DNA of 64,000 bases, from positions 124,001 to 188,000 of the forward strand of contig CABIKM010000022.1 in the NCBI GenBank assembly GCA_902196205.1, written 5' to 3'. Positions 2,708 to 8,772 of the stretch are shown in pieces; positions within the stretch are counted from its first letter, which is position 1; the number at the start of each line of letters is the position of its first letter. The notes under the pieces are model-generated. The model saw only the letters and a program-made list of their open reading frames with translations. It was not told the DNA's origin and ran no database searches. This stretch comes from Candidatus Methylomirabilis lanthanidiphila (GTDB taxonomy: Bacteria > Methylomirabilota > Methylomirabilia > Methylomirabilales > Methylomirabilaceae). A program made the translations under genes and the position numbers.

Positions 2708-2816
2708 GCCCAACCAGGCGCTGCAGCGGACGGGGGGACCGTGGCGGTTTGCAGCTTGCTGGCCCAGTCACAGGCCAGTGGCAGTGCTGCCCCAGCCGCT
2801 GAGCTTTCCGTTTGAC
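2708..2816 (+). repeat. attC-like cassette recombination site A
   Basis: The left core GCCCAAC (2708-2714) fits RYYYAAC exactly. After a 5-base spacer comes GCTGCAGCGG, which pairs with CCGCTGAGC near the right end if one G stays extrahelical. A 5-base spacer then leads to the right core GTTTGAC (2810-2816). Core, spacer, stem with an unpaired base, spacer, core is the canonical attC architecture. The 31-base spacing from the upstream stop codon fits a cassette end. Confidence 0.7.
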
Positions 2817-2877
2817 AGACCTCGAGGTATTGTGTAGTGCCGGCAGGATGGTAAGATCCGGAACAGGGAGATGCGCG

Positions 2878-3429
2878 ATGAGTCGCTGGGTGTTTGAACC
2901 TGGACATACCGCAGCCGAGTTCTGCGTACGACACATGATGGTGACGTACGTCCGGGGTCACTTCAAGGACGTACATGGCACGCTGGAGTTCGATCCGGAG
3001 GCTCCCGCCGTGTCCGGCGTCGAGGCGGTCATCGATGCGCGCGGTCTCTGGAGCGGTGAGCCTGATCGCGATACCCACCTTAGGGGTCCTGACTTCCTCG
3101 ATGTCGAGCGCTTCCCCGAGATCACCTTTCGCGGACGCCAGGTCCGCCTCGCAGGGGCTAACGAGGCGGTGGTAGTCGGCGATCTCACGCTGCGCGGGGT
3201 GACCCGATCCGTCGACCTGCACGTCCGCTACCTCGGACAGTGGCAGACGCCGTGGTGGAAGGATGGTGTAGACACAGGACCCAAGACCCGCGCCGGGTTT
3301 CTTGCCACCGCCCGGATCAACCGTCACGACTTTGGCGTGAGCTGGAACAGTGCGCTCGATCGGGGCGGTGTGGTGGTTGGCGACGATGTGACGGTAACCA
3401 TCGACGCCGAGGCCATCCTTCAGTCCTAG
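2878..3429 (+). CDS. YceI family protein, copy 1
   Basis: A 183-residue protein starting at ATG 2878 behind AGGGAGA. The YceI pattern is clear: FEPGHTAAEFCVRHMMVTYVRGHF near the N-terminus, DARGLWSG, HLRGPDFLDVERFPEITF in the middle, GDLTLRGVTR, and a C-terminal DVTVTIDAEAIL strand. YceI proteins are lipocalin-like barrels that bind isoprenoid or other hydrophobic molecules. No signal peptide is visible, so this one is probably cytoplasmic. It starts 61 bases after attC-like site A. A near-identical copy lies at 7344-7895, and the two share flanking sequence from the attC right core onward. Confidence 0.9.
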   Translation: MSRWVFEPGHTAAEFCVRHMMVTYVRGHFKDVHGTLEFDPEAPAVSGVEAVIDARGLWSGEPDRDTHLRGPDFLDVERFPEITFRGRQVRLAGANEAVVVGDLTLRGVTRSVDLHVRYLGQWQTPWWKDGVDTGPKTRAGFLATARINRHDFGVSWNSALDRGGVVVGDDVTVTIDAEAILQS

Positions 3430-3487
3430 AGGGGCGCGCCGGAGGGTGTGTCACCGGGAACGGTGACCAGCCCTCGAATAAGCTCGG

Positions 3488-3521
3488 TAGGCTAGGTTGA
3501 GGAACGACACCCGGCTCAATG
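3488..3521. repeat. Half copy of the GTAGGCTGGG repeat
   Basis: GTAGGCTAGGTTGAGGAACG followed by ACCCGGCTCAA resembles the left half of the repeat at 2001-2118. Confidence 0.5.
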
Positions 3522-3593: not shown

Positions 3594-3833
3594 ATGCTGG
3601 CGAAAAAAACATCCAAGAATCAGATCACACTTCCGAAGGCCATCGTCACTCAACTTCCAGAGGTCGAGTACTTCGAGGTCTCGCTCCGGAAGGGCGAGGT
3701 AGTCTTAAAGCCGGTTGAGGTGACCGTTCCAGGAGAGAGACTGAAGGTGGTGCGCGCCAAGATCAGGGCGTTGGGGTTGACCGAGCAGGACGTTGATCGG
3801 GCGATCCGCTGGGCGCGAGATCGTCAGACCTGA
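3594..3833 (+). CDS. AbrB/SpoVT-type antitoxin
   Basis: A 79-residue protein. Residues 4-47 (KTSKNQITLPKAIVTQLP...YFEVSLRKGEVVLKPV) form the swapped-hairpin AbrB/MazE DNA-binding fold. The C-terminal helices (LKVVRAKIRALGLTEQDVDRAIRWAR) would wrap the toxin. It overlaps the PIN toxin by one base (TGATG), so translation is coupled. It probably represses its own promoter with the toxin, as is usual for this class. A decayed copy of its C-terminal half lies at 8889-8999. Confidence 0.85.
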   Translation: MLAKKTSKNQITLPKAIVTQLPEVEYFEVSLRKGEVVLKPVEVTVPGERLKVVRAKIRALGLTEQDVDRAIRWARDRQT

Positions 3834-4243
3834 TGCGCGTCGTACTGGATACGAACACGCTCATCTCGGCCCTTCTGTTCTCCGGTACCGCTTCCCGACT
3901 CGTTCCCTTGTGGCAATCTCAGCGCATCACGGTCCTACTGTCTAAAGCGATCCTCCAGGAATACCTCCGGGTCTTTACCTATCCGAAGTTCCGCTTAACC
4001 GACTGGGAGGTGAGAGGATTGATCGAAGAAGAGTTGTTGCCCTTTGTTGAAACGGTCAGGGTGAGGAAGCGTGTTACCGCCGTTCGGCGGGATCCTGAAG
4101 ATGATAAGTTTCTGGAGTGTGCTGTAGCCGGCCTGGCCGAGTATCTCGTGACAGGGGACCAGGATCTTTTGGAGCTAAGGACTTACCGTGGAATCGCGAT
4201 CTGCACAGTGGGGACGTTTTTAAAGATACATGGTGACGAGTAG
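3833..4243 (+). CDS. PIN-domain toxin (COG1569/PIN_3 type)
   Basis: A 136-residue PIN ribonuclease-like protein. Acidic metal-binding positions are visible: D6 in VVLDTNTL, a Glu in the early helix (LQEYLRVF), D85-D87 within RRDPEDDKFLECA, and D106/D108 in TGDQDLLEL. Length and order match the family in which the toxin cleaves RNA and is held by an AbrB- or RHH-type antitoxin. It is translationally coupled to the antitoxin upstream. All key acids are present, so it is probably functional. Confidence 0.85.
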   Translation: MRVVLDTNTLISALLFSGTASRLVPLWQSQRITVLLSKAILQEYLRVFTYPKFRLTDWEVRGLIEEELLPFVETVRVRKRVTAVRRDPEDDKFLECAVAGLAEYLVTGDQDLLELRTYRGIAICTVGTFLKIHGDE

Positions 4244-4274: not shown

Positions 4275-4589
4275 ATGGAGTCCAGGACCGTCGAGCCGTT
4301 TCGGTTCGACTTCACCGGCAACATTGTCGGGCTCGGGTGCGGAATGGCCCTGGTCAATCTGCTGGGCATCAAGTTTCATGGTCGGGTCGGCTGGTGGCTC
4401 TACCGGATGATCCACCTACAGCGCCTGGTCAGCTTCAGAAATAAGGCATCGCTCGCCCTGACCCTCGCGCTGAATGCGATCTTCGATCGCGATCTCTCCT
4501 GCGAAACCTGGCCCGAGACCGACCAAAACATGAACAACGCAAGGATCTCCTCATCTCTCTCAGATTCCGGCGCGCCCGTCACCTCCTGA
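4275..4589 (+). pseudogene. C-terminal fragment of a type II NADH dehydrogenase-like flavoprotein
   Basis: The first 75 residues read like the extreme C-terminus of NDH-2 enzymes: NIVGLGCGMALVNLLGI, KFHGRVGWWLYRMIHLQRL, SFRNKASLALTLALNAIF. This is the membrane-anchoring region that follows the FAD- and NAD-binding domains. Both Rossmann domains, about 350 residues, are absent, so this is a relic. The ATG at 4275 is probably internal by origin. After residue 75 the frame runs into unrelated sequence. Confidence 0.6.
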
Positions 4590-4643
4590 CCACGCGCGCT
4601 CTGTCCCTCACCGCCCTCCCCTACCACGATTTTCACCGATACT

Positions 4644-4784
4644 CGCTATTCCTTTGCCACCGATCTGTAGAAGAGGATCACGATATCCTACAGTCCAGGA
4701 GCTGTTGGGTCATCGGGATGTCAGCATGCGATGACCTAGACCCATGTGCTGAACCGAGGCGGGATGGGGGTTTGCAGCCCTTAA
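4644..4784 (+). pseudogene. Decayed C-terminus of an integron-type tyrosine recombinase
   Basis: Reading across small indels gives RYSFATDL, then EEDHDI, TVQELLGHRDVS, and THVLNRGGMGVCSP followed by a stop at 4782-4784. These match, in order, box II of tyrosine recombinases (RHSFATHL, LLGH, and the catalytic Tyr region YTHVLNRGG). The GG-GVRSP ending is characteristic of integron integrases. At least one base is missing near 4673, an in-frame stop and shift lie near 4733, and the catalytic Tyr is lost. It is oriented the same way as the cassettes that follow, as in reverse integrons. Confidence 0.7.
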
Positions 4785-4825
4785 ATAGCCTCGGATGTGG
4801 TCCAGACGCTTCGCGGTCGGAGGCG

Positions 4826-4963
4826 GGATAGGCTGACATAGGTGCAGCGTTTGCCGCCGGCAGCATTGATAAGAATTTGTTGCTAACTACACGAGAAGGT
4901 TATACGATCTGCCTGATCTTAATAAACAGTTCGTCGGGCTGATCAGCATACATAGTAGTTAGC
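4826..4963 (+). repeat. Att-like element, copy 2
   Basis: A 31-base block identical to copy 1 (4826-4856) is followed by an 82-base element bounded by a perfect 9-bp inverted repeat: GCTAACTAC at 4882-4890 and GTAGTTAGC at 4955-4963. Inside, GCCTGATC pairs with GATCAGC if one C is extrahelical. It lies 98 bases after the integrase relic and 22 bases before the macro/TIR-like gene, the expected position for a primary attachment site in a reverse integron. Confidence 0.6.
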
Positions 4964-4985
4964 TGTCTGGGAGTCTGGGAGCGCC

Positions 4986-5984
4986 ATGAACGTCAAAGCG
5001 GGTTCGGATATCAGCATCGTCGTCGAACAAGGCGACGCCTTGCAATTCGATGCAGACGTATTGGTCTTGAAATACGCCGACGCCATGTACGGCGTGGATC
5101 GCGCCGCCGTACAGGCCCTCGCCAGGTCCGTACCAGATATCCAGGCTCGGTTGCCGAAACCCGCGGGGTTCTACATCACGCCGCCAACCGACGCCGTAGC
5201 CCCGGGTCGGGTTCTCTTTGTGGGAGTCGGTCCACTCCGCCAGTTCGGGTATGGGGAGATCCGCAAGTTTGGCCGGAAGGCACTGGAAGCTCTTGCCGGC
5301 GAGATGCCGCACGCGGGCCATGTGGCCTTGACAATTCACGGGCCGGGGTACGGTCTCGACGAGGCCGAGGCGTTTGAGTCAGAAGTCGCTGGGCTGCTGG
5401 ACGCAGTCGCCAGCGGTGACTTTCCAGCAGACCTCGCCAAGGTGACGATTGTCGAGGCGAATGCCGGGCGTGCGAAGCGCCTCAAAGCCCTGCTCGGTCA
5501 GCTCCTGCCTGGTGGACCACCTGGCTCTCGCAGCCGTCCCGCTCGACCGCTCTCTTTGGTACCGGATCGTCTGCGGTCAGTTGGCTACGACTCCCAGAGC
5601 AAGCCGCACGTCTTCGTTGCCATGCCCTTCGCAGACGAGATGGATGACGTGTTCCACTACGGGATTCAAGGTGCGGTGAATGCGGCTGGATTCCTCTGCG
5701 AGAGAGCGGATCTGTCAGCCTTCACCGGTGACGTGATGGAGTGGGTGAGGACACGCATCTCGAGCGCAACGCTCGTTATCGCTGATTTATCGGATGCGAA
5801 CCCAAACGTGTATCTCGAAGTAGGCTATGCATGGGGATGCGGTCGGCCTACGGTGTTGCTTGTGAAAGACACATCACAGCTGAAGTTCGACGTGAAGGGC
5901 CAAAGGTGTCTTGTCTACAAGAAGATCAAGGACCTGGAGACATCGCTCCGTTCGGAGCTCGACGGCCTTAAGGGAACCCTGTGA
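4986..5984 (+). CDS. Macro-like N-terminal plus TIR/deoxyribosyltransferase-like C-terminal protein, possible defence effector
   Basis: A 332-residue soluble protein. Residues 8-170 resemble the macro-like fold seen at the N-terminus of M17 peptidases (DALQFDADVLVLKYA, GRVLFVGVGPL, FGRKALEAL), but no peptidase domain follows. A Pro/Arg/Ser-rich linker spans about 175-205. Residues 207-325 form a nucleoside 2-deoxyribosyltransferase/TIR-like domain: HVFVAMPF at 208-215, a helix ending in CERADLSAF, and ADLSDANPNVYLEVGYA at 266-282, where E278 is the expected catalytic Glu. Such domains cleave or bind nucleotides, and TIR plus macro pairings occur in antiphage systems. A defence role here is inference. 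It occupies a complete cassette, between att-like copy 2 and attC-like site B. Confidence 0.75.
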   Translation: MNVKAGSDISIVVEQGDALQFDADVLVLKYADAMYGVDRAAVQALARSVPDIQARLPKPAGFYITPPTDAVAPGRVLFVGVGPLRQFGYGEIRKFGRKALEALAGEMPHAGHVALTIHGPGYGLDEAEAFESEVAGLLDAVASGDFPADLAKVTIVEANAGRAKRLKALLGQLLPGGPPGSRSRPARPLSLVPDRLRSVGYDSQSKPHVFVAMPFADEMDDVFHYGIQGAVNAAGFLCERADLSAFTGDVMEWVRTRISSATLVIADLSDANPNVYLEVGYAWGCGRPTVLLVKDTSQLKFDVKGQRCLVYKKIKDLETSLRSELDGLKGTL

Positions 5985-5998
5985 TGGCCGCGGGTGAC

Positions 5999-6057
5999 AG
6001 CTAACAGCAGCATCAGCGGACGGCGCTCCGCGCCGCCGCTGATGCTGGGCGTTGCGG
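5999..6057 (+). repeat. attC-like cassette recombination site B
   Basis: AGCTAAC (5999-6005) and GTTGCGG (6051-6057) flank an almost perfect hairpin. CAGCATCAGCGG (6008-6019) pairs with CCGCTGATGCTG (6036-6047), one A is left unpaired, and CGGCGC pairs with GCGCCG. The site starts 14 bases after the upstream stop codon. A Rho-independent terminator is less likely: no T run follows and the flanks carry the AAC/GTT cores. Confidence 0.7.
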
Positions 6058-6334
6058 CACACACTGGAAAATCGATCACGGCAGTCGGCTTCCGGTCAGG
6101 CGCGGACGTCCGTGGAACGTCAGAGCGGCGGCGGCGTTCCACAGGGTGCCGCTGAGGTTTCGTAGTAGCCGCTCTCCTAAGAGCGCCCCGTTCGATGGCG
6201 GTTCCGCGGCCCTAGCCTTCGGCCGGTGAAGCCGGGAAGAATGGTCCATCCCCGGAACGTGTTAACGTGTCCGCCGAAGCCGTGCGGAGTCCGCACCTTA
6301 TGTCGTCCACCCACTACACAATAGGAGAAACCCC
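6058..6334 (+). other. Leader region of the cytochrome P460 gene
   Basis: No gene is seen. A TGGAACG..CGTTCCA inverted repeat lies near 6113-6159. AGGAG lies just before the downstream ATG. Confidence 0.4.
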
Positions 6335-7126
6335 ATGAAAAAAGTGCTCGGATTGTCCATCGTTCTGACCGTCGCGCCGGTTGCTCAAGCTGCTGATATT
6401 GACGTCGGCAAAGCGACAGTCGCCACCGTGTGCGCGGCCTGCCACGGCCCGACCGGGGTGAGCGTGAGCGATACCATCCCCAATCTTGCGGCCCAGCGGA
6501 CCGGCTACCTCGAAGCACAACTGAAGGCGCTCAAGGAGGGCACACGCAAGAACCCTATCATGAACGCCATCGCCGCTCAACTGAGCCCAGAAGACATGGC
6601 GAACGTCGCCGCGTATTTCGCCGCGCAGCCCGGGCCGCAGGCGGGCGCCAAGTCAAGCTTTCTGCCGAACGTCGCGAAAACCCGCGTGACCTTCCCGGAG
6701 GGCTACAAGGACACGTTTACGAAGTACCACACGATCAATTTTCCCGCGACCAAGCAGGTGCGATACTACTATGCCAACAAGGCCGCCGTGCAGGCCGCTA
6801 AAGAAGGCAAGCCGCTGCCCGACGGCTCGATGCTGTTCGCCGAGGTCTACGCGGCAAAACTCGACGCCGACAGGAAACCGCTTATGGGCGGCGACGGCTT
6901 TTTCGTGGCGGAGAAGCTCCTCTTCTACACGGCGATGGCGCGAGGAGCAGGCTGGGGCAATGAGATGCCCGATATGCTGCGTAACGGGGACTGGAACTAC
7001 GCCATTTTCACCACCGACAAGCAACACCGACCGGGAGTGAACCAGGCCGAGTGCCTCGCCTGCCACAAGCCGCTCGACAATGCGAGCTATACCTTCACGC
7101 TGAAGCAGCTCGTAGAAGCGAAGTAG
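6335..7126 (+). CDS. Cytochrome c-cytochrome P460 fusion
   Basis: A 263-residue exported protein. The Sec signal peptide ends near AQAA (residues 17-20). Residues 21-98 form a class I cytochrome c with CAACH at 33-37 and PIMNAI supplying a possible distal Met76. Residues 115-263 form a cytochrome P460 domain: YHTINFPATKQVRYYY, GDGFFVAEK, a Trp-rich GAGWGNEM segment, and the C-terminal haem motif CLACH at 240-244. P460 haems oxidise hydroxylamine or NO in ammonia and methane oxidisers; the c domain would take up electrons. Several Lys residues (130, 140, 149) are candidates for the P460 Lys-haem crosslink, but which one, if any, crosslinks cannot be seen. The gene lies alone between two attC-like sites. 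Confidence 0.85.
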   Translation: MKKVLGLSIVLTVAPVAQAADIDVGKATVATVCAACHGPTGVSVSDTIPNLAAQRTGYLEAQLKALKEGTRKNPIMNAIAAQLSPEDMANVAAYFAAQPGPQAGAKSSFLPNVAKTRVTFPEGYKDTFTKYHTINFPATKQVRYYYANKAAVQAAKEGKPLPDGSMLFAEVYAAKLDADRKPLMGGDGFFVAEKLLFYTAMARGAGWGNEMPDMLRNGDWNYAIFTTDKQHRPGVNQAECLACHKPLDNASYTFTLKQLVEAK

Positions 7127-7222
7127 GCCGGGCGACGGTCGGTGCCTTGGCGGCGGCCAAGCTGCCCGCGCCGCGAATATCCGGAACAGGTCCAACGCGG
7201 ACACTTGGAGCGTCACAATGCC

Positions 7223-7282
7223 GCATAACCATCGCATGGACGGCGACGCGAGGTAAACCGCGCGTCATGCGGGGCGTTGGAC
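7223..7282 (+). repeat. attC-like cassette recombination site C
   Basis: The left core GCATAAC (7223-7229), a short spacer, GCATGGACG pairing with CGTCATGC with one extrahelical G, the spacer GGGGC and the right core GTTGGAC (7276-7282, perfect GTTRRRY) give a 60-base attC. Sequence shared with the first YceI copy begins within this right core. Confidence 0.75.
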
Positions 7283-7343
7283 AGACCTTGAGGTATGGTG
7301 TAGTGCCGGCGGGATGGTAAGATCCGGAACAGGGAGACGCGCG

Positions 7344-7895
7344 ATGAGTCGTTGGACGTTTGAACCTGGACATACCGCAGCCGAGTTCTGTGTGCGACAC
7401 ATGATGGTCACGTACATCCGGGGTCACTTCAAGCACGTGCACGGCACGCTGGAGTTCGATCCGGAGGCTCCCACCGAGTCTCGCGTCGAGGCCGTCATCG
7501 ATGCGCGGGGTCTCTGGAGCGGTGAGCGGGATCGCGATACCCACCTCACGGGTCCTGACTTCCTCGATGTCGAACGCTTTCCCGAGATCACCTTTCGCGG
7601 ACGCCAGGTCCGCCTCACAGGGGCCAACGAGGCTGTGGTGGTCGGCGATCTCACGCTGCGCGGGGTGACCCGATCCATCGACCTGCACGTCCGCTACCTC
7701 GGACAGTGGCAGACGCCGTGGTGGAAGGATGGGGTGGACACAGGACCCAAGACCCGCGCCGGGTTTCTTGCCACCGCACGGATCAACCGTCACCACTTTG
7801 GCGTGAGCTGGAACAGTGCGCTCGATCGGGGCGGTGTGGTTGTTGGCGACGATGTGACGGTAACCATCGACGCCGAGGCCATCCTTCAGTCCTAG
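7344..7895 (+). CDS. YceI family protein, copy 2
   Basis: A 183-residue protein starting at ATG 7344 behind AGGGAGA, in the same context as the copy at 2878. The two proteins differ at only about a dozen positions. The whole YceI barrel is kept (FCVRHMMVTYIRGHF, DFLDVERFPEITFRG, GVTRSIDLHV, DVTVTIDAEAIL). Homology continues about 60 bases upstream, to the core of attC-like site C, and about 16 bases past the stop codon, so the duplicated unit is about 635 bases. Like copy 1 it lacks a signal peptide. The role is presumably binding of an isoprenoid-like ligand. Confidence 0.9.
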   Translation: MSRWTFEPGHTAAEFCVRHMMVTYIRGHFKHVHGTLEFDPEAPTESRVEAVIDARGLWSGERDRDTHLTGPDFLDVERFPEITFRGRQVRLTGANEAVVVGDLTLRGVTRSIDLHVRYLGQWQTPWWKDGVDTGPKTRAGFLATARINRHHFGVSWNSALDRGGVVVGDDVTVTIDAEAILQS

Positions 7896-7911: not shown

Positions 7912-7964
7912 GATGGGAGTAACCGTCGCGCTGGGTTCGCTTTGCTCATCCCAGCCTACCGCAC
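7912..7964. repeat. Half copy of the GTAGGCTGGG repeat
   Basis: GATGGGAGTAACCG followed by GCTGGGTTCGCTTTGCTCATCCCAGCCTACCGCAC closely matches the right half of 2001-2118, split here across the text to show both parts of the match. Confidence 0.65.
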
Positions 7965-7981
7965 TGACTCCAACGAGTCCT

Positions 7982-8015: not shown

Positions 8016-8303
8016 ATGAAGCTCATCGGGCGGGATGTCATTCAACTATTCGTACGGAGACATCCCGATTCCAGGTCTTCTCTGAAGGGCTGGATCCAGG
8101 CCGCGGAGTCCAACAGCTTCAAGCATTTCGTCGATCTCAAGAAGACCTTTGGGTCAGCAGATCAGGTCAAGCCGCACACGGTGTTCGACATCTCCGGGAA
8201 TAAGTATCGGCTGATCGCTGTCGTAGACTATACCATTCAATCGGTGTCAATCGAGTGCGTCCTGACGCATGCCGTGTATGATGAGGGACGCTGGAGAAAG
8301 TGA
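8016..8303 (+). CDS. higB: HigB-type mRNA interferase toxin
   Basis: A 95-residue RelE/HigB-fold protein (HigB_toxin family). A basic N-terminal helix region with W25 and K36-H37 is followed by VKPHTVFDISGNKYRLIAVVDY, the central sheet of the family. The end is CVLTHAVYDEGRW, where the conserved H-x-x-Y-D is typical of ribosome-dependent mRNA cleavage toxins. The toxin precedes the antitoxin, as usual for hig loci, with one base between the TGA and the next ATG. The short leader means translation starts almost at the operator. Confidence 0.85.
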   Translation: MKLIGRDVIQLFVRRHPDSRSSLKGWIQAAESNSFKHFVDLKKTFGSADQVKPHTVFDISGNKYRLIAVVDYTIQSVSIECVLTHAVYDEGRWRK

Positions 8304-8304
8304 G

Positions 8305-8772
8305 ATGACGATCGCCACACTTGAAAAGAAACTCAAACCGCTGGAGTCCCCGGTAGACAACGAACTGCTTCGGTGGCTCTATCTCCATCTGCCGCCGCGG
8401 CCTATCAAGAGTAGGAAGATGCACCACAATTACAGCGAGGCGGTTCGCATTCTGATGCGGGAATCCGGAGGCCTGGACACCCATAACCGCACGGCTGTCG
8501 ACCAACACCTGAGCGCTGTCATTCCCTTCATCGAGGCGTATGAGAAAAGGGCGTTCGCCATCGGCTCGGCAACCCCTGAGGACATGCTTAGGTTCCTCAT
8601 GGAGCAGCACGAGCTCAGCCAGTACGATCTCGCGAAGGAGCTTGGAGGCCAGCCGGTCGTGTCGCAAATCCTCAGAGGGAAGCGAAGGCTTACACGAGAG
8701 CACATCGAGCGGTTGAGCAAGCGATTCGGGGTGACGCCGGCAACCTTCTACCCCGCAGGAACTACGACCTAA
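8305..8772 (+). CDS. higA: HigA-type antitoxin with XRE helix-turn-helix
   Basis: A 155-residue protein starting at ATG 8305. The N-terminal 95 residues form the long helical extension typical of the larger HigA antitoxins. Residues about 97-145 form the HTH: LRFLMEQHELSQYDLAKELG, then PVVSQILRGKRRLTREHIERLSKRFG. The last helix is the usual toxin/dimer segment, ending with VTPATFYPAG. It should bind HigB and repress the palindromic operator at 7991-8007. The complete pair suggests an active addiction module stabilising this accessory region. Confidence 0.85.
   Translation: MTIATLEKKLKPLESPVDNELLRWLYLHLPPRPIKSRKMHHNYSEAVRILMRESGGLDTHNRTAVDQHLSAVIPFIEAYEKRAFAIGSATPEDMLRFLMEQHELSQYDLAKELGGQPVVSQILRGKRRLTREHIERLSKRFGVTPATFYPAGTTT

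Follow-up and report, generated by a model that had tools for sequence, protein, structure and literature searches.

A cytochrome c joined to a cytochrome c'-beta-like haem domain in a decaying chromosomal integron of Candidatus Methylomirabilis lanthanidiphila

What could a protein made of a cytochrome c and a P460-fold haem domain do in a methane-oxidising bacterium, and how did its gene come to lie among the remains of a chromosomal integron? The question is raised by an open reading frame of Candidatus Methylomirabilis lanthanidiphila found in the stretch of 64,000 nucleotides that was analysed (the window, to which coordinates refer unless another contig or locus is named). The domains, haem motifs, pocket residues and relatives of its product, and the integron anatomy of the locus, have been established and are described below. 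The preferred reading, with a probability of roughly 0.5, is that of a periplasmic diheme cytochrome with an NO-scavenging or other redox role, obtained by gene transfer and now the cargo of a decaying integron.

The open reading frame (6335-7126, plus strand), which corresponds to 130335-131126 of contig 22, is intact and encodes 263 residues, comprising a signal peptide (approximately residues 1-20), a class I cytochrome c (21-98), a linker and a P460/c'-beta domain (118-262). Matches to the Pfam families Cytochrome c (residues 25-94) and Cytochrome_P460 (residues 121-255, 74 bits, with a C-terminal CxxCH) are both above the gathering cut-offs. The N-terminal domain has the features expected of a class I cytochrome c, namely an N-terminal CxxCH (CAACH, C33-C36-H37) and an axial Met towards its C-terminus (Met76), while the haem motif of the C-terminal domain is CLACH (C240-C243-H244). 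All of these residues are invariant in an alignment of 28 full-length fusions, each of which contains both domains. Thus, the original prediction that a single polypeptide joins a class I cytochrome c (CAACH) to a P460-fold domain (CLACH) is borne out by the Pfam matches and by the invariant haem ligands, and, because length, domain order and linker are all conserved, the fusion is a genuine family rather than an accidental read-through. An AlphaFold model, calculated without haem and of only moderate confidence (mean pLDDT 74), finds its best PDB match in the cytochrome c'-beta of Nitrosomonas europaea (7s5o, E 1.8e-12), and its N-terminal half matches cytochromes c552/c554 in the same type of structure search. 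The N-terminal domain shares CAACH and the axial Met with the class I cytochromes c552/c554/c4, which, however, are stand-alone or tandem proteins, whereas here the module is joined to a c'-beta domain. In the genome searched (3,048,664 bases in 90 contigs) this gene is the sole member of the Cytochrome_P460 family.

The locus is a degenerate 'inverted' chromosomal integron, and its geometry is that of an intact integrase locus elsewhere in the genome. The only intact intI of M. lanthanidiphila (469 bits) lies on contig C37 at 5082-6026 (minus strand of locus L010, 5079-6158). Beyond its 3' end lie, in turn, the core GTTGGGT, one gene and an attC site, the R'' box of which (ACCCAAC) is the exact complement of that core, so that integrase, attI core and attC are found together and, from their order, intI is directed at attI and the cassette array. 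From its sequence, this intI is presumably the last gene of an imuA/imuB/dnaE2 operon for SOS mutagenesis, in which start and stop codons overlap; such an apparent coupling of an integrase to error-prone polymerase genes would be unusual. The C37 geometry recurs twice in the window, where platforms with attI and attC retain only remnant intI. The arrangement is similar to that of the Treponema-type chromosomal integrons, in which intI is transcribed toward attI, and intI, attI and cassettes have the same direction (PMC3607928), but here the host belongs to the NC10/Methylomirabilis bacteria and only intI remnants are left on the platforms adjoining the cytochrome gene. Literature searches found no description of integrons in NC10 bacteria. 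The locus provides a record, for this group, of attI and attC sites, of cassettes and of an intI that has decayed repeatedly.

All elements of the two platforms are on the plus strand. In platform A, an attI-like region (2136-2283), the core of which (GTTGGGC at 2277) is the exact complement of the R'' box at 2708, is followed by cassette A1, with an open reading frame that has no Pfam match (2318-2674) and an attC at 2708-2816 (R'' GCCCAAC, R' GTTTGAC), and then by a YceI cassette identified by Pfam (copy 1, 2810-3429). Platform B begins with a remnant of the intI 3' end (4650-4771, with 73.8% of its DNA identical to the intact copy on contig C37) and an attI-like region (4816-4964) with core GTTAGCT at 4958, again the exact complement of the R'' box of the next site, at 5999. 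Cassette B1 (limits 4959-6051) contains an open reading frame with weak Nuc_deoxyrib_tr similarity (4986-5984) and ends in an attC at 5999-6057 (R'' AGCTAAC, R' GTTGCGG; a 12-bp stem with a bulged A). A leader (6058-6334), the fusion gene, an attC-like site with a degenerate interior (7190-7282; R'' GTCCAAC, R' GTTGGAC) and a second YceI cassette (copy 2, 7314-7895) complete the series. The cytochrome gene does lie, as originally predicted, between two attC-like sites (5999-6057 and 7190-7282), and is the second gene of a decaying integron with its integrase pointing toward the cassettes.

The attC at 5999-6057, the DNA strand of which folds with z = −5.5, has the top hairpin score among all sites in the window, but four sites scored as high in 30 dinucleotide shuffles of the whole window, and by score alone it is suggestive rather than decisive. 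The score is a stem-anchored one, used in place of a first scanner based on RNA folding, which gave many background hits and did not pick up the site at 5999. In the attC-like site at 7190-7282 the outer boxes pair over 9 bp around a branched interior (z = −3.7), and a shorter alternative at approximately 7222-7282, with a poor fold, is possible. At both platforms and at the C37 integrase locus the first cassette begins with a 7-mer exactly complementary to its own R'' (3 of 3). Of the 37 GTTRRRY cores in the window, 4, two of them those of platforms A and B, have a complementary partner 420-1100 nt downstream; three matches out of three are therefore unlikely by chance, although a single case would not be decisive. 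The DNA pattern of the 2708 attC occurs in the genome only at that site and, with three mismatches, at one other, and attC-site DNA gave only chance-level matches to plasmids. Rfam and tRNA scans of the window returned nothing, and the MAFFT alignment of the attI regions was too gappy for an attI consensus.

The boundaries of the supposed cytochrome cassette differ in quality. Copies 1 and 2 of YceI share 94% identity from a GTT onwards and are unrelated before it, the similarity starting exactly at C|GTT, at 2809 and 7275, that is, for copy 2, at the attC crossover (7275/7276). In other Methylomirabilis genomes YceI also starts at or near GTT, preceded by an attI-like region in one (G013) and by a canonical attC in another (G009). 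Starting at or near GTT behind differing sequences, YceI is thereby marked as a cassette, and this also fixes where the crossover lies in the site that follows the cytochrome gene. The right end of the cytochrome gene is thus probably a cassette end, defined by the YceI boundary. In the second Methylomirabilis carrying the fusion (G014) the attC-like site is likewise kept with the cytochrome gene and abuts YceI. On the left, where the TTRRRY crossover of a cassette is expected to agree with the R'' of that cassette, the start, GTTGCGG, does not complement the R'' box, GTCCAAC. The leader, which at 277 nt between attC and start codon is unusually long, is approximately 94-95% identical to that of G014 only from about 6068 on, so that homology begins approximately 16 nt inside the supposed cassette; a promoter scan found none. 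The left end is non-canonical in G014 as well. There, the open reading frame downstream of the attI core GTTAGCC continues into the leader of the cytochrome gene, and no GGCTAAC box intervenes, as would be expected if a deletion had occurred at this junction. As that open reading frame has no homologue elsewhere in the genus, the ancestral left junction could not be told.

These irregularities of the left junction in both carriers, together with the long leader, would also fit a different arrival of the gene, a matter independent of the biochemical alternatives discussed below: an ordinary chromosomal gene may have entered the integron region by illegitimate recombination, the flanking attC sites being those of the neighbouring cassettes. 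The betaproteobacterial copies, which have no detectable attC, are in keeping with it. However, the gene is separated from YceI by an attC-like site, the YceI boundary coincides exactly with the crossover point, and both site and YceI remain with the gene in G014, so that this route, although a serious contender, is judged somewhat the less probable. It is concluded that the cytochrome gene is carried by the integron as cargo and that its left boundary has eroded; it may or may not have entered as a cassette. The part of the original prediction that saw a two-domain haem protein as integron cargo stands, and the organism is a methane oxidiser (PmoA is present).

The fusion is not a one-off of Methylomirabilis. 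Of 15 genomes searched within the genus, 2 encode it (M. lanthanidiphila and G014, 97% protein identity); it was also found in a Rokubacterium (G035, 76%) and, among approximately 85,000 species genomes scanned, in about 30 more, nearly all Betaproteobacteria MAGs or isolates and some of them cut by contig ends. The family search called for at the outset has brought to light a two-domain architecture encoded by some 30 other genomes, the betaproteobacterial proteins (L054-L064 and others) reaching 83% identity to the M. lanthanidiphila product. In the tree of fusions the Methylomirabilis pair groups among the Betaproteobacteria and apart from the Rokubacterial copy, but inner support is weak and the donor is therefore not resolved. 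A Betaproteobacteria-centred family would have reached Methylomirabilis by horizontal transfer, possibly effected by the integron itself. DNA similarity between the M. lanthanidiphila and betaproteobacterial copies ends within about 40 nt of the gene, and the leader is absent from the latter except for at most approximately 40 nt 5' of the ATG. The cargo hypothesis had been said to fall if the same fusion were common on chromosomes at one fixed locus lacking attC sites; chromosomal copies are indeed common, and the scan beside those in Betaproteobacteria, of a kind that can miss degenerate sites, gave no convincing attC, so that the gene was not met between attC sites in these genomes, but its neighbours vary and the locus is not fixed. 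No fixed neighbour emerged from a conserved-neighbour search with a simple gene caller that confused strands in places, and the presence of an NDH-2 gene near a few copies is probably a coincidence. A plasmid protein search did not find the full-length fusion. As no attC was detected around the betaproteobacterial copies, the integron may have caught a gene that was not previously a cassette.

A 2025 review of the superfamily distinguishes three pocket features, the cross-link Lys, a distal carboxylate and a capping residue; solved proteins without the first two are entered as not oxidising NH2OH (its Table 2), and those with a hydrophobic pocket are proposed to be gas binders (PMC11928373). 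By sequence alignment to 7s5o and to the P460 of Methylococcus capsulatus, Ala169 of the fusion falls opposite Met79 in N. europaea c'-beta and Lys78 in M. capsulatus P460 and, in the 7s5o alignment, Thr199 aligns with Ala109 (carboxylate position) and Phe136 with Arg46 (cap position). Across the 28 fusions, position 169 is A/V/L/I/G and never Lys, position 199 is T/A/S/V with no carboxylate, and the cap is Phe in 25. The NH2OH-oxidising cytochromes P460 of N. europaea (2je3) and M. capsulatus (6hiu) share fold and Pfam family with the C-terminal domain but have the cross-link Lys (Lys70 and Lys78, respectively) and the carboxylate (Glu96 and Asp102) where the fusion has Ala169 and Thr199. The domain instead combines the P460 fold and C-terminal CxxCH with Ala169 at the cross-link position and Phe136 as the cap, in keeping with cytochromes c'-beta, which have a non-Lys, usually hydrophobic residue at the former and Phe or Arg at the latter; it agrees with 7s5o in fold, CxxCH, hydrophobic cross-link position and lack of the distal carboxylate, and differs in having Phe rather than Arg as cap and in the fused cytochrome c. 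From these residues the second haem domain looks cytochrome c'-beta-like rather than a true P460. Given Ala169, Thr199 and Phe136, and no Lys at 169 in any of the 28 fusions, hydroxylamine oxidation appears unlikely, and binding of NO (and CO) by the second haem is predicted to be more likely. Of the P460 identity originally proposed, fold and family hold, but the residues for NH2OH oxidation are missing. Hydroxylamine detoxification by this domain with a Lys-haem cross-link is not supported, since the cross-link position is Ala169, the distal carboxylate is absent and the best structural match is c'-beta. The structural model suggested for locating a Lys-haem cross-link led to 7s5o, and the candidates K130, K140 and K149 all lie away from the aligned position and are not invariant (Lys in 21, 17 and 14 of the 28, respectively).

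Cytochromes c'-beta are thought to trap NO. In the proposed mechanism the fusion would be a secreted, periplasmic diheme cytochrome, in which the N-terminal low-spin His/Met cytochrome c may act as an electron wire to the C-terminal haem, keeping it in the right redox state. The latter, presumably five-coordinate in a putative c'-beta pocket, would most likely bind NO (and CO), so that the protein might buffer or scavenge NO in a cell producing it from nitrite. In Methylomirabilis, NO is made by NirS, and HAO is already there for hydroxylamine (PMC6094997). As NO is a central intermediate in the host, the fusion could matter for nitrite-dependent methane oxidation. A fusion of a c'-beta/P460 domain with an electron-wire cytochrome finds no mention in the 2025 review (PMC11928373); with a natural one, how the haem stays reduced and whether NO is turned over become testable in one polypeptide. 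On a bolder view, an anaerobic methanotroph that produces NO has received a diheme NO-handling enzyme equipped with its own electron wire, brought in by an integron that trades in genes for the respiration of nitrogen oxides and not in those for resistance or of unknown function; this is tentative and on balance doubtful.

In Rokubacteria (L025 1501-2298; L026) a P460-fold domain is followed, in the same open reading frame, by what we take, by eye, to be a cupredoxin-like domain, so that the fold would occur in another redox fusion as well. Such parallel fusions, and the fact that a fused electron-transfer domain suits turnover better than mere binding, favour a diheme peroxidase-like or NO-reducing enzyme, in which the wire haem would feed a five-coordinate haem that reduces H2O2 or NO. 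The nearest solved relative, N. europaea c'-beta, has a reported peroxidase-like activity (PMC11928373), but this is ascribed to its Arg cap, replaced by Phe in nearly all fusions, and catalysis of this kind is considered unlikely, if still worth bearing in mind. That the gene is a non-functional relic of a decaying region could be argued from the adjoining intI, reduced to fragments, and from the truncation in G014 of the YceI copy next to it, but it is quite improbable for an intact open reading frame that keeps every haem ligand and whose product has a 97% identical counterpart in another species. A true cytochrome P460 oxidising hydroxylamine and passing the electrons to the fused cytochrome c has in its favour the Pfam family name and a methane-oxidising host in which pMMO, found in the genus, can form hydroxylamine from ammonia, but it is very improbable indeed, the cross-link Lys and the proton-accepting carboxylate, both tied to activity (PMC11928373), being absent in 28 of 28 fusions and HAO being already encoded in the genome (PMC6094997).

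In both M. lanthanidiphila and G014 the same variable island is flanked by ammonium-transporter/response-regulator/NDH-2 and nuclease/protease/nirB clusters and contains an intI remnant; from this shared location and remnant, the platform was probably present in their common ancestor. A second copy of the 3' end of an NDH-2 gene lies at 4293-4591, the full copy being just upstream of the window, and an intI remnant follows the NDH-2 sequence at both, which suggests that the platform was duplicated in tandem long ago. Orphan pieces of intI, made up of its final 40-60 codons, are scattered through the genomes of Methylomirabilis (window 4650-4771; L011 19210-19312; L013 1184 and 3240; L014 10306; and other genomes of the genus), several starting in the same codon region (HTFRHSFATHLL) with a hairpin-like or attI-like sequence next. 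Overlapping HigB-like toxin and HTH antitoxin genes (8016-8303 and 8269-8772) adjoin the YceI cassette, and a short AbrB-like open reading frame followed by a PIN_3 domain protein (3594-4243) is probably another toxin-antitoxin pair. Short REP-like repeats in both orientations, with core CCCAGCCTAC/GTAGGCTGGG, occur at 2092-2124, 7933-7965, 2001-2034 and 3487-3520 of the window.
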